A stretch of 32,000 nucleotides of DNA, taken from Verrucomicrobiota bacterium (GTDB lineage Bacteria; Verrucomicrobiota; Verrucomicrobiia; Limisphaerales; VHCN01). Of the stretch, positions 2,453 through 32,000 are shown piece after piece (position 1 is the stretch's first letter; every line of letters begins with the position of its first letter). The notes beneath the pieces are model-generated. The model ran no database searches, was not told where the DNA came from, and was given only the letters and a program-made list of their open reading frames with translations. The position numbers were made by a program, and so were the translations under genes. The stretch spans positions 1-32,000 of the forward strand of contig VHCN01000037.1 in the NCBI GenBank assembly GCA_016871675.1. Reading direction: 5' to 3'.

Positions 2453-3394
2453 GGCATAGCCGTTGTAGGGCAGGGTGCGGATGCGGTCGCCGGTGTCCAC
2501 GACCCGCTCGACGGCTTGCGACCAGCGCGGGTGCGGCACGTCGGGATTCACGTTGGAGAGGAAGGGATACTCGTTGGGCTGGAGCGCCTCCCACAAGCCC
2601 ACGGGCTGCTTCGCGGTGAACTCAATCTTCACGATGGACTTGATGCTCTTGTAGCCATACTTCCAGGGCACGACGAGGCGGATGGGCGCGCCGTTTTGCT
2701 TGGCGAGCGGCTTGCCGTAAAGCCCCGTGGCCACGAGCGCGAGCGGGTGCATCGCCTCGTCGAGCCGCAATCCCTCGTTGTAAGGCAGCGGGTAGCCCTG
2801 TTCGAGCAGGCGCGCCCAGCCGGGCATTTCCGCCGGGCGCGTGGCCGTCTCGAACCGCAGAAACTTCGCCTCAGCCTTGGGCACGGCCTTTTCGACGAGC
2901 TTGCGCAACTCAAAGCCCGTCCACGGCACCACCGCGCTCCACGCCTCGACACAACGGAAGCGATACACGCGCTCCTCGAGTCCGAACATTTCCTCGAGTT
3001 CGCGCGCGTCGAGCGTCATCGGCTTCTCGCACAGGCCGTAGATTTGCACGGGCCAGGGGTCGATCCTGAACTTGTCGGTGAGCAAATGCGGCCGGTCCTT
3101 CTGCGTCGAGAACTCGAAGTAGTTGTTGTAGGTGAGGAAGACCTTCTCGTCCGTGAACCGCCAGCCGGGGTCGAAGGCCTTGTTGCGCGCCGCGGGGAAG
3201 CCCTTGCGCGCGCCGCCTCTGGCCGCGGGCGATTTGTCCGCCGCCTCGGCACCGCCGACCCGTGGCGACGCGAAGAGCCCCGCGGCGGTCAAGCCAAGCT
3301 GCCGCAAAAACGCGCGGCGCGCGCGGTAGGAATGTTCGGGCGTGACGAAGCGGTCTTCGACGTGCCACTCGGGCCGGCGGATGATTTGAGCCAT
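2420..3394 (-). CDS. msrP: Protein-methionine-sulfoxide reductase catalytic subunit MsrP (YedY)
   Basis: A 324-residue molybdopterin oxidoreductase that reduces methionine sulfoxide in exported proteins. Tat signal YRARRAFLRQLGLTAAGLFA (residues 23-42) lies behind a hydrophilic lead, as in E. coli MsrP. Family landmarks: TYNNYFEFSTQKD (88-100), WPVQIYGLCEKP, YRFRCVEAWSAVVPW with the Mo-ligand Cys148, then LRLDEAMHPLALVATGLYG, NGAPIRLVVPWKYGYKSIKSIVKI and the end RTLPYNGYAGQVGGLYKRG. Length is normal. It follows thiD by 27 bases on the same strand, so they may share a transcript. No membrane haem partner MsrQ (YedZ) is adjacent; the quinol electron donor must be encoded elsewhere or replaced. 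Confidence 0.95.
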   Translation of the reverse strand: MAQIIRRPEWHVEDRFVTPEHSYRARRAFLRQLGLTAAGLFASPRVGGAEAADKSPAARGGARKGFPAARNKAFDPGWRFTDEKVFLTYNNYFEFSTQKDRPHLLTDKFRIDPWPVQIYGLCEKPMTLDARELEEMFGLEERVYRFRCVEAWSAVVPWTGFELRKLVEKAVPKAEAKFLRFETATRPAEMPGWARLLEQGYPLPYNEGLRLDEAMHPLALVATGLYGKPLAKQNGAPIRLVVPWKYGYKSIKSIVKIEFTAKQPVGLWEALQPNEYPFLSNVNPDVPHPRWSQAVERVVDTGDRIRTLPYNGYAGQVGGLYKRG

Positions 3395-3421
3395 GGCCGT
3401 AGGATGGACAGGCGCCGCGGG

Positions 3422-4243
3422 CTATTCAGCAAATTTCACCCGGATTCCTTCGCGGTTCCATTGGAGCAAGGCATGCCGGCCCGCGCGCGGGCTGTGCGCG
3501 ATGGCCTCGCTGATGAAGTCCTTGGCCCGGTTCACCGCGGCGGGAAGCGACTGCCCGCTCGCAAGTCCCGCGGCGATGGCGGCCGAGAACGTGCACCCCG
3601 TGCCGTGAGTCTTCACACCGCGCCATCGCGGGCGTGAGATGTCCCACGCGAACTTGTCCCAGAGGAAAAAGTCCGTCGCATCCGACTCGCGCGTCAGATG
3701 GCCACCTTTGACGAGCACCGCGCAGCCGAACCGCGCGTGGATGATTCGCGCCGCTTCTCGCACGTCGTCGAGGGCGCGGATGCGCCGGCCGGAGAGGCGC
3801 ACGGCCTCGGCGAGATTCGGGGTGACGAGCGTTGCGATGGGGAGCAGTTGATCGCGCAGCAGTTTCTCGCCATCGCGATCGAGCAATCGCCGGCCGCTGG
3901 TTGAGACGAGCACCGGGTCCACGACGACCGCGACGCGCGGCACCTTGCGACACCAACGCACGACCTCGGCCACGAGCCGCCTGTTGCCGAGCATCCCGGT
4001 CTTTGCGGCGCGAATCGGGAAATCTTCGGACACCGCCTTCAGTTGCGCGCGAAGCATCGCGGGACTGCACGGCTCGATGGCGAGGACGCGGCGCGGATTC
4101 TGCGCCGTGAGACACGTGATCGCGCAGACGCCGTGAACACCGAACGCGGCGAAGGTCTTCAAGTCCGCCTGCACGCCCGCGCCGCCGCCGGTGTCCGAGC
4201 CGGCGATCGTGATCGCGACGGGCAGTTGGATTTGTGACGGCAC
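3422..4243 (-). CDS. thiD: Hydroxymethylpyrimidine/phosphomethylpyrimidine kinase ThiD
   Basis: A ribokinase-fold enzyme that phosphorylates HMP and HMP-P to HMP-PP, the step after ThiC in thiamine synthesis. Near the start is AITIAGSDTGGGAGVQADLK, then TCLTAQNP, KTGMLGNRRLV, VDPVLVSTSGRRLL, TPNLAEAVRLSG, VLVKGGHL and the catalytic HGTGCTFSAAIAAGLASG. I chose the GTG at 4243, giving 273 residues, the usual family length. A frame extends upstream to an ATG at 4459, but those residues are low-complexity, have no ThiD similarity, and would be read through the start of the divergent esterase gene. No TPP riboswitch is visible in front of this gene, unlike thiC. msrP follows after 27 bases. Confidence 0.93.
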   Translation of the reverse strand: MPSQIQLPVAITIAGSDTGGGAGVQADLKTFAAFGVHGVCAITCLTAQNPRRVLAIEPCSPAMLRAQLKAVSEDFPIRAAKTGMLGNRRLVAEVVRWCRKVPRVAVVVDPVLVSTSGRRLLDRDGEKLLRDQLLPIATLVTPNLAEAVRLSGRRIRALDDVREAARIIHARFGCAVLVKGGHLTRESDATDFFLWDKFAWDISRPRWRGVKTHGTGCTFSAAIAAGLASGQSLPAAVNRAKDFISEAIAHSPRAGRHALLQWNREGIRVKFAE

Positions 4244-4364
4244 GGGCGGATTAGAGCGGACGGCGCGGTTTGACGCAAAGGCGCAATGGCGCGAGGACGG
4301 GCGTCGCGCGCACCGCGCTGCTTTCCCGTTTGACTCGCCTTGGGCCTTCCGGTGTATTCGCGCC

Positions 4365-5936
4365 ATGCGATTCAATCCTCTGTCCGTCCTGGCCGCGTTC
4401 TCGTTTGCCGCGCTCGTTCCGTTCGCGCGCGCGGATGTGAAGCTCCCGGCGCTGTTCACCGATCACATGGTGCTGCAGCAAGGCATGAGCGTGCCCGTGT
4501 GGGGTTGGGCCGACGAGGGCGAGCAGGTCACCGTCACCTTCACCGGGCAGAAGCACACCACGCGCGCCGTCGGCGGCAAGTGGCGCATCAACCTCACCCC
4601 GCTGAAAGCCAGCGTCGCGCCGGAGTTGCTCGTGGTCCAGGGCAAGAACCGCATCGAACTCAAGAACGTCGTCGTCGGCGAAGTCTGGATCGCCAGCGGC
4701 CAGTCGAACATGCAGTGGGGCCTCAACCAGTCGCACGAACCGCAGAAGGACATCACCAACGCGGCGAATCGAAACCTCCGGCTCTTCTACGTCCCGCGCG
4801 TGAAGGCCGACGCGCCCGCCGCCGACCTCGGCGGGCTGCATCACGGCGCGAAGCCCGTGTGGATGGTCGCCGCTTCCAACTCGGTCGTGGATTTTTCGGC
4901 CGTGGCCTACTACTTCGGGCGTGACTTGCAGAAGGCGCGGCAGGTGCCCGTCGGCATCATTCACACGAGTTGGGGCGGGTCGCCCGCCGAGGTGTGGATG
5001 AGTCACGCGGTGCTTTCGGCGAACCCCGACTACAAGCGCGACATTCTCGACGCGTATCCCAAGGCGCTCGACAGTTTCAAGTCCGCGAAAGCAGCATTCG
5101 ACGACAAGGCCGCCGCCGCGAAGAAGGACGGGGCGCAGGAGGCGCCGAAAGCCCAGAAATCCGCGCAACCGCCCCGCGCGCCCTGGAAGCCGGGCGAGCT
5201 CTACAACTCGATGATCGCGCCGCTCATCCCGTTCGCGATCAAGGGAGGCATCTGGTATCAGGGCGAGTCCAACGCCGGGCGCGCGTGGCAGTATCGCACG
5301 CTTTTCGCCGACATGATCCGCAACTGGCGCAAGGACTGGGGGCAGGGCGACTTCACGTTTCTCACGGTCGAGCTCGCGCCGTTCACGAAGATTCTCACCG
5401 AGCCCGCGGAGAGCAACTGGGCCGAGCTGCGCGAGGCGCAGATCGTCGCCAGCCGCGCCGTCGGCAACGCCGGCACCGTGACCATCACCGACGTCGGCGA
5501 AGAGAACGACATCCACCCAAAGAAGAAGGAACCCGTCGGCGCGCGGCTCGCGTTGCTCGCGCAGAAGCTGGCCTATGGCGAGAAGATCACGGCCGACGGA
5601 CCGACCTTCAAAAGCGCGAAGTTCGAGGGCAACAAGGCCACGATCACCCTGGACAACGTCGGCTCCGGACTGCTCGTCAAGGGCGGCGAGGAGGCGAAGG
5701 GCTTCGCCATCTGCGGCGAGGACCGGAAATTCGTGTGGGCCAAGGCCGAGATCAAGGGCGACACCGTGGTGCTCACGAGCGACAAGGTCGCCAAACCCGT
5801 CGCCGCGCGCTTCGGCTGGGCGAGCTACCCCGTCGTGAATCTCTGGAACAAGGACGGCCTGCCGGCTCATCCGTTCCGGACGGACTCGTTCCCGGTCACG
5901 ACCGAGCCGGCGACAAAGCAGGCGGCGAAGAAGTAA
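4365..5936 (+). CDS. Secreted sialate O-acetylesterase (SGNH-type)
   Basis: A 523-residue exported esterase. Signal peptide MRFNPLSVLAAFSFAALVPFARA (1-23), then an N-terminal beta domain beginning VKLPALFTDHMVLQQG and VPVWGWAD typical of the family. The catalytic module has IASGQSNMQWGL with Ser114, IIHTSWGGSPAEVWMS (198-213), GGIWYQGESN (294-303), and NDIHPKKKEPVG with Asp382 and His384. A Lys/Ala-rich stretch (about 241-275) separates the two halves of the SGNH domain. Family members remove O-acetyl groups from sialic acids, though many PVC homologues probably act on plant acetyl-polysaccharides. A sialidase-fold gene follows after 65 bases, supporting joint action on decorated glycans. ATG at 4365 is chosen because the signal peptide starts there. 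Confidence 0.92.
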   Translation: MRFNPLSVLAAFSFAALVPFARADVKLPALFTDHMVLQQGMSVPVWGWADEGEQVTVTFTGQKHTTRAVGGKWRINLTPLKASVAPELLVVQGKNRIELKNVVVGEVWIASGQSNMQWGLNQSHEPQKDITNAANRNLRLFYVPRVKADAPAADLGGLHHGAKPVWMVAASNSVVDFSAVAYYFGRDLQKARQVPVGIIHTSWGGSPAEVWMSHAVLSANPDYKRDILDAYPKALDSFKSAKAAFDDKAAAAKKDGAQEAPKAQKSAQPPRAPWKPGELYNSMIAPLIPFAIKGGIWYQGESNAGRAWQYRTLFADMIRNWRKDWGQGDFTFLTVELAPFTKILTEPAESNWAELREAQIVASRAVGNAGTVTITDVGEENDIHPKKKEPVGARLALLAQKLAYGEKITADGPTFKSAKFEGNKATITLDNVGSGLLVKGGEEAKGFAICGEDRKFVWAKAEIKGDTVVLTSDKVAKPVAARFGWASYPVVNLWNKDGLPAHPFRTDSFPVTTEPATKQAAKK

Positions 5937-6001
5937 CGGTCGTGGAACGGGATTTCGGCTCCACGATTCGCAGTCGGCGGTTGAACATCAATACCAAGCT
6001 C

Positions 6002-7048
6002 ATGAACCGGACGCTCGCAATTCTCGGCTGCGCTCTCAGTGTGGCGGCGACTTTCGCCGCGGAGCCCGCCGCCATCCTGAAATCCGAATTCATCTACGAA
6101 ACAGCACCGTTTCCGTCGTGCCACGCCTCGACCATCGTGGAAACGAAGGGCGGGCTCGTCACCGCGTGGTTTGGCGGCACGGCGGAGCGCAATCCCGACG
6201 TCGGCATCTGGGTTTCGCGCCACGAGGGCGGCAAGTGGTCCGCGCCCGTCGAGGTGGCCAACGGCGTGCAGTCGCCCGCGAAGCGCCACCCGTGCTGGAA
6301 TCCGATTCTCTTTCAGCCGAAGTCCGGCCCGCTGCTGCTCTTCTACAAAGTCGGCCCGAGCCCATCGACGTGGTGGGGCGAGTTGCGCACGTCCGAGGAC
6401 GCGGGAAAAACCTGGTCCGCCGCGCGCCGGCTGCCCGAGGGCATCCTCGGCCCGGTGAAGAACAAGCCCGTGGAACTCGCGGACGGCAGCCTGCTTTGTC
6501 CGACGAGCAGCGAACACGACGGCTGGCGCGTGCACTTCGAGCGCACGACCGACCTCGGCAAGACCTGGCAGGTCATCGGCCCCGTGAACGATGGCAAGGA
6601 ATTCAGCGCCATCCAGCCGAGCATCCTGTTTCATGCGGGCGGCAAGTTGCAGGCCGTCGGTCGCACGCGGCAGAAAAAGCTTTTCGAAATCTGGTCGGAG
6701 GATGGCGGCAAGACGTGGGGCAGGCTCGGTGCGACGGAACTTCCGAATCCCAGTTCGGGCACGGACGCCGTGACGCTCGCCGACGGCCGCCAACTGCTCG
6801 TTTACAATCACACGCCCAACGGCCGCTCGCCGCTGAACGTCGCCGTCTCAAAGGACGGCAAGTCGTGGCAGGCCGGCGCGGTCCTTGAGAGCAATCCCGG
6901 CGAGTATTCCTACCCCGCAGTCATCCAGACGCGCGACGGGCTGGTGCACACCACCTACACATGGAAGCGCCAGCGCGTGAAACACGTCGTGCTCGACCCG
7001 GCGAAACTCGACTCCAAGCCCATCGTGGCCGGAGTGTGGCCGAACTGA
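6002..7048 (+). CDS. Secreted sialidase-family (BNR/Asp-box) protein
   Basis: A 348-residue exported six-bladed propeller protein. Signal peptide MNRTLAILGCALSVAATFAA (1-20). Asp-box repeats S/T-x-D-x-G-x-T-W occur at 131-138 (SEDAGKTW), 182-189 (TTDLGKTW), 232-239 (SEDGGKTW), and a degenerate one at 283-289 (SKDGKSW). The N-terminal block CHASTIVETKGGLVTAWFGG and the run GPVKNKPVELADGSLLCP match the PF13088-type sialidase group. Such proteins are usually annotated exo-alpha-sialidase, but the group also contains non-sialidase propellers, so substrate is uncertain. It follows the sialate O-acetylesterase gene on the same strand with a short gap and is followed by ridA after 42 bases, consistent with one transcript. 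Confidence 0.87.
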   Translation: MNRTLAILGCALSVAATFAAEPAAILKSEFIYETAPFPSCHASTIVETKGGLVTAWFGGTAERNPDVGIWVSRHEGGKWSAPVEVANGVQSPAKRHPCWNPILFQPKSGPLLLFYKVGPSPSTWWGELRTSEDAGKTWSAARRLPEGILGPVKNKPVELADGSLLCPTSSEHDGWRVHFERTTDLGKTWQVIGPVNDGKEFSAIQPSILFHAGGKLQAVGRTRQKKLFEIWSEDGGKTWGRLGATELPNPSSGTDAVTLADGRQLLVYNHTPNGRSPLNVAVSKDGKSWQAGAVLESNPGEYSYPAVIQTRDGLVHTTYTWKRQRVKHVVLDPAKLDSKPIVAGVWPN

Positions 7049-23505: not shown

Positions 23506-25443
23506 TCACCGGATTCCGGCGGGTGGCACCGGGCAGTCCAGCGAATTGCTGATGGCGCGAAGCAGTTCGGCCTCTTCAACGCGCACCGAGCCGTCCGCGG
23601 AAATCACGGCGACGCATGCGGTGAGGATCCGCTTCTTCATCGGAAACGCCGCGGCACCGAGCGCGTCGAGGGCGGAGCCGAGCGCGTCGAGTTTGCATTC
23701 GTCCTGCGGTAACGGCTCGTCGGACGGGTTCGACAGCAGCAATTCACGCCACCCGGCGCGATACGCGGCGGCGGCCATTGTCGGGTCGCCTCTGTGGCCC
23801 TGCCGGGCGAGGCAGGAGAGCAGCACCATGCATTCGCGCCGGAAGGTGAGCAACTTGCCGCGGGCGGCTTGCGGAGTGATGACGCCGAAGAAGATGCCCA
23901 GATGGCGGGCGAGCACTCTTTTGAGCGTGAACTCAAACAAGTCCAGCCACCCGTCGCTCGCGATGAGTTCGTCGAGGATTGAGTTGAAACGCTCGAACTG
24001 CGAGCGGTTCATCCGCCGCAGGCCGGTGAGCGCAAGGTCGAGCAGCGCCAGCTTTCGAGCCCGGTCGCGCAGTTCGGGAAGCGGTTCAAGCCGGGCGAGG
24101 TCGTCGCAAACGGGCGCGTCCGACTGCTCCCGCAGCCGGGCGATCTGCCCGGCGCGCACCGCGGGTTCCTCGCTGAGCAGCAGCGCGAACACGAGCGCGC
24201 GCGACCCGTGCGGATCGCGGGCAGCGACCGTAATCGCGTCCGGAAGCGCGCGGACGAAGTCAGCCGCGTGTTTGAGGTCTGTGGACCGGGCGTCGCCGAC
24301 GGCGAGCGGAAAGTTCGCGATGGCGCGTCGGTCCATCTTGAACGCCGCCGGGCCGGACGCCAATCCAGCGACCGGCCTGGCGGAATCTTCCGACGAAACG
24401 GGGCGTGGCTCGGCGGCGAGTTTTGCCATCTCGGCATTGAACGCGGGGTCGAGCCATTGGATGCGCTCGTTGATCGGCGGGTGCGACGCCATCAGGGCGT
24501 CGAGCCACGAGGGTCTCGCGGCGTTCGAAAAGAACAAGTGCCGGAGCAACGACGCTTGTGGCGTGGACAACACGGAGCCGTGGCGAAAGCCGGCGATTTT
24601 CTTGAGCGCACCCGCGAGCCCGAGCGGGTTGCGGGTGAACTGCACCGCGGACGAGTCGGCGAGGAACTCCCGCTGGCGCGAGACCGCCGCCTGGATGAGC
24701 CGGCCAAAGAACACGCCGAGGTAGCCGATGACCAGCAGCGCGAGTCCCAAGAGAAACAAGACGACGAGAATCCCGCTGGCACCCTTGTCGCGCCGACTGC
24801 TCAAACGGTGGCCACGGGAATCGCTGATCAACTGCACGAGCACTTTGCCCACCACCGCGAGGCCCATGATGCCGCCGAGCCAGCCCGCGAGCCGGATGTT
24901 CAACCGCATGTCCCCATTCAGGATGTGGCTGAACTCGTGGCCGACCACGCCCTGCAACTCGTCGCGTGTGAGATTCTGCAGCGCGCCGCGGGTCACGGCC
25001 ACCGCGGCGTCGCTCGTGGTTTTCCCGGCCGCGAAGGCGTTGATGCCGTCCTCATCCTCCAGCACGAACACCGCCGGCGCGGGCACGCCGGAGGCGATGG
25101 ACATTTCCTCGACCACGTTCAGCAAGCGGCGCTCCAGCGGGTCGAGGCTGGCCGGGTCCACCTGCCGGCCGCCGCAGGATTGCGCCACCGCTGAGCCGCC
25201 GCCGGCCAGGCCCGCCCAGGTGATGCCCGCGCCGCACAGCACGATGAGCAAAGTTGCCGCGATGTTGATCGCGATCAAGACCGGGTCGTCGATTCGGCTC
25301 TGTCGCGACTCCAATACGAACGGCACCAACGCGCTGACGACCAAATGGACCGCCGTGACGATGAGGGCCAGGGCGATGAAGAACAGGACGAGCAACCGGC
25401 CGGTGTTGCGGCGCGCGGATTCCTGTTTGGCGAAGAAGTCCAT
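23506..25443 (-). CDS. M48 family membrane zinc metalloprotease with C-terminal TerB-like region
   Basis: A 645-residue HtpX-like protease. Two N-terminal membrane segments (about 16-44 and 54-79), then LLNVVEEMSIASGVPAPAVF, INAFAAGKTTSDAAVAVTRG and the zinc site GVVGHEFSHILNGD with His169, Glu170, His173. Further membrane segments are at about 186-206 and 223-249, followed by SRQREFLADSSAVQFT, where Glu259 should be the third zinc ligand. SHPPINERIQWL is a conserved M48 element. After about 375 the protein continues some 270 residues beyond ordinary HtpX; the end LTACVAVISADGSVRVEEAELLRAI looks like a TerB-type helical module. lemA lies 16 bases upstream, a recurring LemA-M48 pair in envelope quality control. 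Confidence 0.92.
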   Translation of the reverse strand: MDFFAKQESARRNTGRLLVLFFIALALIVTAVHLVVSALVPFVLESRQSRIDDPVLIAINIAATLLIVLCGAGITWAGLAGGGSAVAQSCGGRQVDPASLDPLERRLLNVVEEMSIASGVPAPAVFVLEDEDGINAFAAGKTTSDAAVAVTRGALQNLTRDELQGVVGHEFSHILNGDMRLNIRLAGWLGGIMGLAVVGKVLVQLISDSRGHRLSSRRDKGASGILVVLFLLGLALLVIGYLGVFFGRLIQAAVSRQREFLADSSAVQFTRNPLGLAGALKKIAGFRHGSVLSTPQASLLRHLFFSNAARPSWLDALMASHPPINERIQWLDPAFNAEMAKLAAEPRPVSSEDSARPVAGLASGPAAFKMDRRAIANFPLAVGDARSTDLKHAADFVRALPDAITVAARDPHGSRALVFALLLSEEPAVRAGQIARLREQSDAPVCDDLARLEPLPELRDRARKLALLDLALTGLRRMNRSQFERFNSILDELIASDGWLDLFEFTLKRVLARHLGIFFGVITPQAARGKLLTFRRECMVLLSCLARQGHRGDPTMAAAAYRAGWRELLLSNPSDEPLPQDECKLDALGSALDALGAAAFPMKKRILTACVAVISADGSVRVEEAELLRAISNSLDCPVPPAGIR

Positions 25444-25459
25444 GCAGGGTTGGGGCCGT

Positions 25460-26056
25460 TCAGTTGAATGCCACCTTCACATTCTCCCGCTCGGCGTCGT
25501 TGTCGATCGTCCACAGCGGGGCCTCGGCAAAATGGAATGCGCGCGCGAGCAGGTTCGCGGGGAACGACTGCACCTGCGTGTTGTAGACCATCACCGCGTC
25601 GTTGAAGGCCTGCCGCGCGAATCCGATGCGGTTCTCCGTGGCGCTGAGTTCCTCCATCACGAGCGCCATGCTTTGGTCGGCTTTGAGATCGGGATACGCC
25701 TCGGCGATGGCCAGCAAGCGGCCGAGCCCGGCGACGAGCGCGCCCTCGGCCCGGAGCAACTCCCGCATTGCCCCGCTGTCCGCGGGATTCGCGGCGGCGC
25801 GCGAGGCGGCGGAGACCGCGGCAGCGCGGGCTGTGGTGACCTCCTCGAGCGTGGCGCGCTCGTGCTTCAGGTAGCCCCTCGCCGTCTCGACAAGGTTCGG
25901 GATGAGGTCGTGGCGCCGCTTGAGTTGCACATCGATCTGCGCGAAGGCTCGCTTGAACTGGTTGCGCAGGGCGACGAGCCCGTTATAGACGGCGAGTGCA
26001 TACCCGATGAGCAGCACGGCGAGCGCGACCGGAACGAGGATCAGCATGGAGGGCAT
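25460..26056 (-). CDS. lemA: LemA family protein
   Basis: A 198-residue membrane-anchored helical protein. The N-terminal hydrophobic segment MLILVPVALAVLLIGYALAV (4-23) anchors it, followed by the family core YNGLVALRNQFKRAFAQIDV, QLKRRHDLIPNLVETARGYL, KHERATLEEVTTARAAA, LGRLLAIAEAYPDLKADQSM, ELSATENRIGFARQAFNDAV, MVYNTQVQSFPANLLARAF and AEAPLWTIDNDAERENVKVAF, which is complete. LemA has no known catalytic activity; it is often next to TPM-domain or M48 proteases. Here the M48 gene follows after 16 bases, so the two form an operon, and LemA may act as the protease's partner (inference). Confidence 0.95.
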   Translation of the reverse strand: MPSMLILVPVALAVLLIGYALAVYNGLVALRNQFKRAFAQIDVQLKRRHDLIPNLVETARGYLKHERATLEEVTTARAAAVSAASRAAANPADSGAMRELLRAEGALVAGLGRLLAIAEAYPDLKADQSMALVMEELSATENRIGFARQAFNDAVMVYNTQVQSFPANLLARAFHFAEAPLWTIDNDAERENVKVAFN

Positions 26057-29424: not shown

Positions 29425-30471
29425 TCACTTCGCCTTCACCGCCGTCCACACCTCGTCGTAGAGGCGCGTTCCGGCCCCGAGATCTTCGAGGAACTCCAAC
29501 CGCTGCATCACTTCGGGCGGAGGATAGATGGCGGGGTTCGCAAGATCCTCCTTCTTGATGAACGGCCGCGCGGCCTTGTTCGGCGTCGCATACTGGATGA
29601 AGTCGGAGAGCTGCGCGCCCACGCGCGCGTCGAGCACGTGGTTGATGAACTTCTCCGCCAAGTCTCGGTGCGGCGCCTTCGCGGGCACGGCGAGGCTGTC
29701 CACCCAGAGGATGCTGCCCTCGCGCGGGATGAGGTAGCGCGTGTCCTTGTCGTCGGCCATGCCGCGCGCGGCGTCGCCGCTGTAAGCCATCGCGGCGGCG
29801 GCGGCTTTGCCGAGGACCTTGTTGCGCCCGCCCACGCCGCCCTCGAATCCCGAGGAGCGCCGCTTGGCCTCGATGAGGAGGTCGCGCGCTTCGCGCAGGT
29901 GCGCCGGGTCGGTGGAGTTGAAGCTGTGCCCCTTGAACTTGAGCGCCGCGCCGATGGTGTCGCGCGCGGTGTCGAGCATCACGAACTTGCCGGGCTGCAG
30001 CTTCGCGTCGAACAGCAGGCCCCACGTCTCGGGCAGCGGCCGTCCACGGGCCGCGCGCACGAACAGGCCCACGGTGCCCCATTGATACGCGGCGGTGAAC
30101 TTGTTGCCGCGATCCCATGGCGGGCTGGCGAAGCGCTCGTCGAGGTTCTTGAGGTTCGGGATGTTCTCGTGCCGCAGCGGCGCGAGCAGGCCGAGCTTGA
30201 GCATCGTCGGCACCGAACTGTCCGGCGGCACCACGATGTCGTAGAGCGACACGCCGCCGCCCTGGATTTTGGCGAGCATGGCCTCGGCGTCTTCATACAA
30301 ATCCACGGTGACCTTGCACGCGTGGAGCTTCTCGAACCCGGCGACGACCTTGGGGTCGAGGTATTCGCTCCAGATGAAGATGTTGAGCTTCGACTGTCCG
30401 GAGGCGGGCACGGCGATCAGCAGCAGCACAAACCACCGGGCGAGGCGGAGGATGGCGTGGATGGGCGTCAT
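29425..30471 (-). CDS. potD: Spermidine/putrescine-type ABC transporter substrate-binding protein
   Basis: A 348-residue periplasmic binding protein of the PotD/PotF family. Signal peptide about 1-25 (WFVLLLIAVPASGQS). The mature start KLNIFIWSEYLDPKVVAGFE and CKVTVDLYEDAEAMLAKIQG are typical, as are YDIVVPPDSSVPTMLKLGLL, PPWDRGNKFTAAYQWGTVGL, LDTARDTIGAALKFKGHSFN, AMAYSGDAARGM, IPREGSILWVDSLAVPAKAP, EKFINHVLDARVGAQLSDFI and QYATPNKAA. The ligand cannot be read precisely; polyamine is the default. Its ATG overlaps the stop of the permease gene (ATGA), so they are coupled. Adjacent genes for the ATPase (PotA) and the first permease (PotB) are missing from the window. Confidence 0.92.
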   Translation of the reverse strand: MTPIHAILRLARWFVLLLIAVPASGQSKLNIFIWSEYLDPKVVAGFEKLHACKVTVDLYEDAEAMLAKIQGGGVSLYDIVVPPDSSVPTMLKLGLLAPLRHENIPNLKNLDERFASPPWDRGNKFTAAYQWGTVGLFVRAARGRPLPETWGLLFDAKLQPGKFVMLDTARDTIGAALKFKGHSFNSTDPAHLREARDLLIEAKRRSSGFEGGVGGRNKVLGKAAAAAMAYSGDAARGMADDKDTRYLIPREGSILWVDSLAVPAKAPHRDLAEKFINHVLDARVGAQLSDFIQYATPNKAARPFIKKEDLANPAIYPPPEVMQRLEFLEDLGAGTRLYDEVWTAVKAK

Positions 30472-31253
30472 GGCACTTTTCTGCGCAACCAGGTCACGAG
30501 CACGGTCCCGGCGGCGGCGGCGAGCACGAGGAGCGCGGAGAGCGCGTTGATGTCCGGTGTGATTCCACGTTTCACGGACGAGTAAATCAGGATGGGCAGC
30601 GTGGTCGAGCCCGGACCGCTCGTGAAGAAGCTCACGACGAAATCATCGAGGCTCAGCGTGAACGCCAGCAACGCCGCCGCCAGCACGCCCGGCACCAACA
30701 GCGGCAGCGTCACGTGCCGGAACACCTGCGCCGGCGTCGCCCCGAGGTCGCGCGCGGCTTCTTCGAGCGACGGGTCCATTCCCGACATCCGGGCGCGCAC
30801 CACGATGGCCACGAACGGAATTTGAAACGTCACGTGCGCGAGCACCATCGTCATCAGCCCCAGTTCAAACCAGCCGGTCCAACGGCGGAGCAGCCCGAGG
30901 AACAACAGCAGCGACGCCGCCAGCACCACGTCCGGAATGAACACGGGCAGATACAGCGCGCGCTGCACCAGCCCCGCGCCCCGGAATCGCCGCGCCAGCC
31001 CGACACCCAGCATCGTGCCGAGCACCGTCGAAATGCCCGTGCTTGCCGCCGCCAGCAGCAGCGTGTTCTTTGCGGCGTCGAGCGCGAGGTTGTTCTCCCA
31101 CAGCGCGCGATACCACTGGAGCGTGAAGCCGTGCCAGCCCGTGCCGAAGCGCGACGCGTTGAATGAAAAGAGGACCACGACCAGCAGCGGCGCGTAGAGG
31201 AACGCGAACAGCAGCGCGGTCGCGATGCCCGTGGGCCAGCGGAACGACTTCAT
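30468..31253 (-). CDS. potC: ABC transporter permease, PotC type
   Basis: A 261-residue inner-membrane permease with about six membrane segments. It starts MKSFRWPTGIATALLFAFLY and continues APLLVVVLFSFNASRFGTGW, HGFTLQWYRALWENNLALDA, LGTMLGVGLARRF, VFIPDVVLAASLLLFLGLL and VTFQIPFVAIVVRARM. The EAA loop for docking the ATPase is MDPSLEEAARDLGATPAQVF RHVTLPLLVPG. The end is FTLSLDDFVVSFFTSGPGST, LPILIYSSVKRGITPDINAL. This is the PotC/YdcV type. ATG at 31253 fits the first membrane segment; a frame reaching 31370 lies over remains of a broken upstream gene. It lacks a PotB or PotA neighbour on the upstream side. Confidence 0.92.
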   Translation of the reverse strand: MKSFRWPTGIATALLFAFLYAPLLVVVLFSFNASRFGTGWHGFTLQWYRALWENNLALDAAKNTLLLAAASTGISTVLGTMLGVGLARRFRGAGLVQRALYLPVFIPDVVLAASLLLFLGLLRRWTGWFELGLMTMVLAHVTFQIPFVAIVVRARMSGMDPSLEEAARDLGATPAQVFRHVTLPLLVPGVLAAALLAFTLSLDDFVVSFFTSGPGSTTLPILIYSSVKRGITPDINALSALLVLAAAAGTVLVTWLRRKVP

Positions 31254-31261
31254 GGGCGTCG

Positions 31262-31682
31262 AAAAAGGGGCCACCGCAGCCAGGGCTCGCGCACGGGTCA
31301 CAAGCTGGCCGTCACGCCGCGCCACGCCCACGTGATGGGCGTTGCACGACGCGTTCCATCGGCAGCGCATCGAGGAACGCCAGCGGGTCGTAGCCGTGAT
31401 TCACCGAGTTGACGTGCAGGTTCGTCACGTCGAGCAACAGCCCGCAGTCCGTGCGTTCGAGGACCTCGCCGATGAACTCCGCTTCGGGCATCTCTGCGCC
31501 GGGCAGGGTGACGCTGAAGGTGATGTTCTCGAGGATGAGCCGCGGGCCAATGCGCCCGCGGGCGACGGCGACATTCCGGCAGAGCGCCTCCACCGCCTCG
31601 CGCATGAAGGGCAGCGGAGTCAAATGCCCGATTTGGATGCCGCCCGCGCGCGTGAAGGCGATGTGCTCGCTCCACCACGGCG
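31262..31682 (-). pseudogene. Broken MNIO (DUF692) family gene
   Basis: From about 31682 the minus strand reads PPWWSEHIAFTRAGGIQIGH, LTPLPFMREAVEALCRNVAV, RLILENITFSVTLPGAEMPE, AEFIGEVLERTDCGLLLDVT, NLHVNSVNHGYDPLAFLDAL and PMERVVQ, a good match to the middle of DUF692/MNIO iron-dependent oxidases, which modify peptides for metallophores and related products. The N-terminal third is absent. After ERVVQ this frame becomes RPSRGRG and stops, while a neighbouring frame continues HHVGVARRDGQLVTRARAL, the expected next segment, to about 31262. So there is a frameshift near 31345-31352 and no complete C terminus. It ends just upstream of potC. Confidence 0.7.
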
Positions 31683-31961
31683 GCCTCGATGGCTGGACGG
31701 ATGGATTCCAGCAGCAGCAGGGTCACTTCACGGAACACGAGCATCACGTTCACGTTGCTGCTGCGCTCGGCGGTTTCGCCGCGCGCCAGTCCGCCATAGA
31801 GCACAACGGACACGAGCTTGTCAGGAGTGGCCATGCGGAGCTTGTCGCAGCAGTGCAGGAGCCCCTCGCGCACCGGCGCGGGGGAGCAGCGTGCCGAGTT
31901 TGATCAACTGCTGCTCGATGGCATCCGGTGAAGGCAGGTTTGGAGTTCGGTCCTTGTTCAT
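31683..31961 (-). pseudogene. Broken nucleotidyltransferase-domain gene
   Basis: An ATG at 31961 with GAGG six bases upstream starts MNKDRTPNLPSPDAIEQQLI KLGTLLP, then loses frame in a run of five G (plus 31880-31884). Dropping one base continues APVREGLLHCCDKLRMATPD, KLVSVVLYGGLARGETAERS, SNVNVMLVFREVTLLLLESI RPAI, a nucleotidyltransferase-like fold. The usual GS...SDxD metal motif is here GG...SNVN, so it lacks the canonical Ser and the first Asp. The similarity ends at about 31683 where the DUF692 remnant begins, so a deletion has joined two genes. Sequencing or assembly error in the G run is possible for the frameshift, but not for the missing residues. Confidence 0.6.
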
Positions 31962-32000
31962 GTCATCCTCATTGGTTTTGGGGTTTCTCGGTTGCAAACT

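Follow-up and report, generated by a model that had tools for sequence, protein, structure and literature searches.

The analysed stretch (the window) is the whole of contig C37 (G000:C37, 32,000 bp) from a source genome of 3.6 Mb that is rated 96.87% complete. A broken locus occupies the final 740 bp of C37. On the minus strand, a nucleotidyltransferase-like (NT) gene, of which the first ~283 bp are left, continues out of frame into the central part of an MNIO/DUF692 gene that has itself lost both ends. The features of the locus and its surroundings are listed from the contig end inward.

31874-32000, no strand: terminal 127 bp of C37, the same as the first 127 bp of C24, an identity between two contigs of one genome
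31679-31961, minus strand: 5′ part of the NT-like gene, with ATG at 31961 and the conserved part at 31679-31882; the C-terminal two thirds are absent
31880-31884, no strand: GGGGG run near the NT frame change, inside the 127 bp common to C37 and C24
31679-31689, minus strand: out-of-frame junction of the NT and MNIO homologies, given by the ends of tblastx and tblastn matches
31342-31683, minus strand: central piece of the MNIO/DUF692 gene, 114 codons with no internal stop (PF05114, E 3.1e-40)
31299-31337, minus strand: probable MNIO continuation in another frame (HHVGVARRDGQLV), in the register expected; MNIO is lost beyond it
31254-31298, no strand: 45 bp between the MNIO remnant and potC, with no MNIO C terminus and no partner gene
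30468-31253, minus strand: intact potC-like ABC permease gene outside the broken locus (PF00528, E 7.3e-20), named as in the original prediction

The NT fragment was identified with an HMM of the NT proteins of 14 relatives. The HMM matches the minus frame 31301-31903 (E 1.1e-16) over residues 8-75, which correspond to 31679-31882, and no second match was found at E ≤ 10 among 470 frames of the window. In tblastn the fragment is 43-46% identical to NT of two relatives, G177 and G036, and it has no Pfam or NCBIfam match of its own. The ATG at 31961 has GAGG five bases upstream. Because the frame holding this ATG (31821-32000) differs from the frame of the conserved NT part, a frame change is placed near the GGGGG run at 31880-31884. 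Without a frame change, GTG 31873 in the conserved frame would be a possible start; it is disfavoured by the lack of a recognisable ribosome site and by the earlier starts of most relatives.

The MNIO fragment lies in the minus frame 31312-31722, which matches PF05114 at E 3.1e-40. Its 138.6 bits against a cut-off of 25 make it a member of the family, and since only profile positions 80-196 of 263 are found in one frame, it is a fragment and not a complete TIM barrel. The frame is intact up to ...MERVVQ at 31342. It is followed by 13 residues read in the potC frame, HHVGVARRDGQLV, whose register is the one expected of MNIO and whose score is equalled or exceeded by 8 of 400 random segments of the window. 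A frame change in MNIO before these residues is likely. The original prediction had separate frameshifts in the two genes, and the five-G run lies at the position that it gave; the NT frameshift is upheld, and the MNIO one is likely rather than certain.

The MNIO piece is 74% identical in amino acids to its counterpart in G177 and 72-73% identical to those in G036 and G080, when G036 and G177 are 69% identical to each other over the same columns. Third codon positions account for 0.62 of the differences from G177, a clear excess, but for 0.49 of those from G036 and 0.47 of those from G080, where the excess is not clear. GC3 is 0.89 in the piece and 0.88 in potC. Judged from the 74% identity to G177 and a GC3 like that of potC, the piece retains a coding signature. 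Because it is conserved as well as intact copies are, the loss was taken as recent.

The closest NCBIfam models of the piece are those of the Bufferin MNIO (BufB, E 1.8e-32) and HvfB (E 2.3e-29). It stays far below both cut-offs, with 112.7 of 310 bits and 102.8 of 360 bits, which a fragment could hardly reach. Close relatives also differ from the BufB and HvfB systems in having a TIGR04222 membrane protein as the precursor.

The NT and MNIO homologies abut within about 10 bases in different frames, and their E values (1.1e-16 and 3.1e-40) rule out chance similarity for either piece. The HMM and PF05114 matches agree with the earlier claim that an NT fragment is joined within a few bases to the middle of a DUF692 gene whose N terminus is gone. 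According to tblastn, NT is cut after about residue 80 of 247 and MNIO begins only at about residue 86 of 277. In G177, G036 and G080 the two genes stand apart, and compared with these about 1.8-2.1 kb is absent at the junction. The NT-to-MNIO interval that has gone from the window measures 2.05 kb in G036, 2.08 kb in G080 and, as reckoned from tblastn residue numbers, about 1.8 kb in G177.

The tight abutment would also fit a true NT-MNIO gene of two domains whose damage is due entirely to sequencing errors. This is very improbable, as both proteins are cut at the join (NT at ~80 of 247, MNIO at ~86 of 277) and NT and MNIO are separate at all 17 of the NT-MNIO loci described below. An intact fusion, which the original prediction had named as the case against itself, was seen at none of these 17. 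It is likewise hardly credible that the shortened open frame continues to be translated into a product with some residual function. Its 114 codons without a stop and its coding-like composition would suit such a product, but the MNIO barrel is without both ends, and at the MNIO piece no start codon preceded by a ribosome site was recognised.

Intact counterparts were sought in the order to which the source organism belongs, using separate single-sequence searches for NT and for MNIO. An NT homologue occurs in 26 of 320 genomes, the window's own included, and MNIO in 55 of 320. The order has 27 NT places outside the window's genome, 16 of which have MNIO in the same retrieved stretch. A seventeenth NT-MNIO locus, L119, comes from a Myxococcales MAG. 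A partner-like match is present at 17 of 17 loci, 5 of which supplied sequences to the partner model. Although the models applied to these loci were partly built from them, the NT-MNIO neighbourhoods within the order derive from the single-sequence searches. A protein with a Cys/Gly-rich tail was recognized by motif at 13 of the 17, and that of G285 was matched by tblastn over residues 1-138 of 154. TIGR04222 membership was confirmed for the tail proteins of G036 and G177, and the shorter one of G254 falls outside that family.

The usual gene order is NT, tail protein, MNIO and partner, with MNIO and partner preceding NT in G199, G192 and G191. By synteny, NT and MNIO probably belong to one operon for peptide or protein modification, together with the tail protein and a PME-like partner. 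The earlier suggestion that the locus is the debris of a peptide-modification locus gains support from this synteny, and the proposed comparison of intact gene order in relatives returned NT, a TIGR04222 or Cys/Gly-tail protein, MNIO and a PME-like partner.

L119 (JAGQJP010000729.1, 730-4029) carries a complete NT, Cys/Gly-tail protein, MNIO and partner operon in a Myxococcales record, which suggests horizontal transfer or mis-binning. Two other wrecks of this kind of operon are present in the order. L106 (G285, 3131-4891) has an NT gene without its N terminus and with a stop, and a cut MNIO gene that runs into the partner. L107 (G089, 4047-4571) has an MNIO gene with a frame change that is then cut.

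NT also occurs with a Cys/Gly-tail protein when no MNIO is nearby, in G012, G118, G152 and G154. L112 (G154, 3979-6750) holds NT, a TIGR04222/Cys-Gly-tail protein and then a radical SAM/SPASM gene, and L201 (G152, 4273-5916) holds NT followed by a TIGR04222/Cys-Gly-tail protein. The G154 and G152 loci raise the possibility that NT serves the precursor irrespective of which enzyme modifies it. At seven of the 27 NT places the retrieved stretch lacks both MNIO and a Cys/Gly-tail protein (G113, G265, G162, G034, G080:C485 and two of G268), and some of these stretches end at contig ends.

Whether the remaining parts of the operon lie elsewhere in the source genome (97% complete) was examined. There is one PF05114 match in total, hence no second MNIO. 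A full-length NT query matches the window fragment only, and an N-terminal query matches this fragment and the C24 overlap. No TIGR04222 match was found with a model that would miss short Cys/Gly-tail proteins, as it did the one tested (G254), and no PME-like partner was matched by the partner model in a search run without a positive control. In the window itself, the MNIO piece is followed by potC with no partner, and neither a tail protein nor a TIGR04222 precursor stands beside it. A second copy elsewhere in the source genome was considered and rejected, the MNIO, NT and TIGR04222 searches having found none.

The last 127 bp of C37 and the first 127 bp of C24 are identical, and no third copy of this 127-mer was found in the source genome, the best other match being 24 bp on C13. 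We read this overlap as that of two contigs which share a vertex of a k=127 graph, and it points to C24 as the sequence next to this end of C37 on the chromosome. Another path through this site probably exists in the sample. With this apparent fork in the assembly graph, strain or assembly effects at the contig end are possible.

If so, the main population could carry an intact operon, with the contig end being a collapsed or chimeric minor path. We regard this as unlikely. It would account for the exact overlap with C24, which resembles a k=127 fork at the NT start, and for an MNIO piece that has barely decayed. However, no other contig of the 97%-complete genome yielded an MNIO piece, TIGR04222 or the remaining NT, no third copy of the 127-mer was found, and the adjacency of C37 and C24 itself fits a real chromosome order. 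Moreover, the lesions are several and separate, namely the NT frame change, the out-of-frame junction, and the MNIO change and truncation, so one chimeric join hardly explains the locus.

The reading that we prefer, with a probability of roughly 0.82, is that an internal deletion recently turned a four-gene operon of NT, a TIGR04222/Cys-Gly-tail protein, MNIO (an iron oxidase) and a PME-like partner into the pseudogene relic at this locus. Compared with relatives, about 2 kb is absent between the NT 5′ part and the middle of MNIO, the two are joined in different frames, and up to potC neither the 3′ end of MNIO nor the partner gene is left. Against a relic, the MNIO piece is little decayed for a gene with several lesions. 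The listed genomes are no closer than the order level, too distant to date the deletion or to show it to be fixed. In intact relatives, MNIO guided by the PME-like partner would oxidatively modify Cys residues of the tail protein, which presumably lie in the Cys/Gly/Ser-rich tail of a membrane protein. The NT-like protein resembles AadA but has a degenerate metal site, and it may act as a binding or regulatory protein for the precursor and probably not as a standard nucleotidyltransferase. In the source organism the operon would no longer be functional.

DxD is the metal-site motif of an active nucleotidyltransferase (NTP_transf_2). The window has GG...SNVN at this site and no DxD. Among 28 aligned rows including that of the window, 19 have DxN, seven have lost both acids (the window among them), one keeps the second only, and one, a distant member, has DxD. 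The first Asp is gone in 7 of the other 27 rows, and GG is found in the intact NT of G036, G080, G177, G152 and G154. The degenerate metal site, originally read as damage, turns out to be a family trait with DxN as its commonest form. With GG in intact relatives and the first Asp lost repeatedly, the state of this site does not speak for decay.

Four intact NT proteins match NTP_transf_2 with E of 6e-5 to 0.0045, two of the four above the Pfam cut-off, and none of them has an NCBIfam model above cut-off. A low-confidence structure model of NT (pLDDT 61.4 from a 2-row alignment) has AadA and AAD(9) as its best PDB matches. The ten best reach TM ≤ 0.33 and give a hint only, with HEPN toxins further down. 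NT shares with AadA-type and MNT-HEPN proteins the weak NTP_transf_2 match and the predicted helices behind it. Unlike them, the NT family has DxD in 1 of 28 rows, scores far below all NCBIfam resistance cut-offs and stands beside MNIO operons. Its members are probably non-standard or dead nucleotidyltransferases, and nothing seen suggests drug resistance.

MNIO loci beyond the order were surveyed in a scan of named genomes, in which records of the window's genome may be absent. At least 586 MNIO places were confirmed and the best 80 were kept. Within these best 80 of at least 586, a partner match is present at 16, and a Cys/Gly-tail protein is found by motif on the MNIO strand at 9, which include Cylindrospermum, Armatimonadetes, Planctomycetota and Pyrinomonadaceae. 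NT is present at 2, L119 (Myxococcales) and L120 (a Verrucomicrobiales MAG). From these counts, precursor, MNIO and partner are widely joined, and NT is an addition. The 2 of 80, together with the 7 of 27 NT places without MNIO or tail protein, stand against a general NT role.

Clusters of TIGR04222, MNIO and PME-type 2 are described in the accessible part of Antoine et al. 2025 (PMC12452194). As presented there, MNIO stands beside a DUF2063-like (PME) partner and a TIGR04222 membrane protein that has no signal peptide and whose C-terminal region is rich in Ser and Gly and bears Cys, all as in the relatives here. The same part of that source gives adjamnio-I as 122-293 residues with 8 to 21 Cys, and the short Cys/Gly-tail proteins may correspond to it. 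Two differences from the clusters in that part are that an NT-like gene opens most NT-MNIO operons in the order, as well as the Myxococcales one, and that the window copy is broken. A link of NT to MNIO operons was not found in the open-access literature searched, supplements excluded. Among the papers listed, the word nucleotidyltransferase appears in PMC11118758 alone, in a passage about LanC in Kordia.

The NT-like gene is a possible, so far undescribed component of operons of this kind. The relic is an ordinary pseudogene, and its value is as a pointer to an NT-like protein that recurs with MNIOs and TIGR04222/Cys-Gly-tail precursors in the order and in a Myxococcales MAG and is a candidate new helper of this protein modification. 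It is about an even bet that this NT look-alike, its metal site dead or altered, belongs to Cys/Gly-tail precursor operons as a dedicated fourth member that serves the precursor, be the modifying enzyme an MNIO or, as in G154, a radical SAM/SPASM enzyme. If true, the window, G285 and G089 hold at least three separate wrecks of such operons, which show that the system is dispensable.

Next to the broken locus, the potC-like permease gene and a potD-like binding-protein gene lie together at 29425-31253. A PotB-like permease, judged from its translation, and the best PotA-like ATPase (just under the cut-off) are on other contigs, at G000:C3:27661-28242 and G000:C18:32432-33337, and the polyamine transporter genes of the source genome look scattered. 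The pot gene order was also considered as a clue to rearrangement and gave no answer, the PotA- and PotB-like genes being on other contigs. Further into the window, at 23506-26056, an M48-family peptidase frame lies beside a LemA-family gene.
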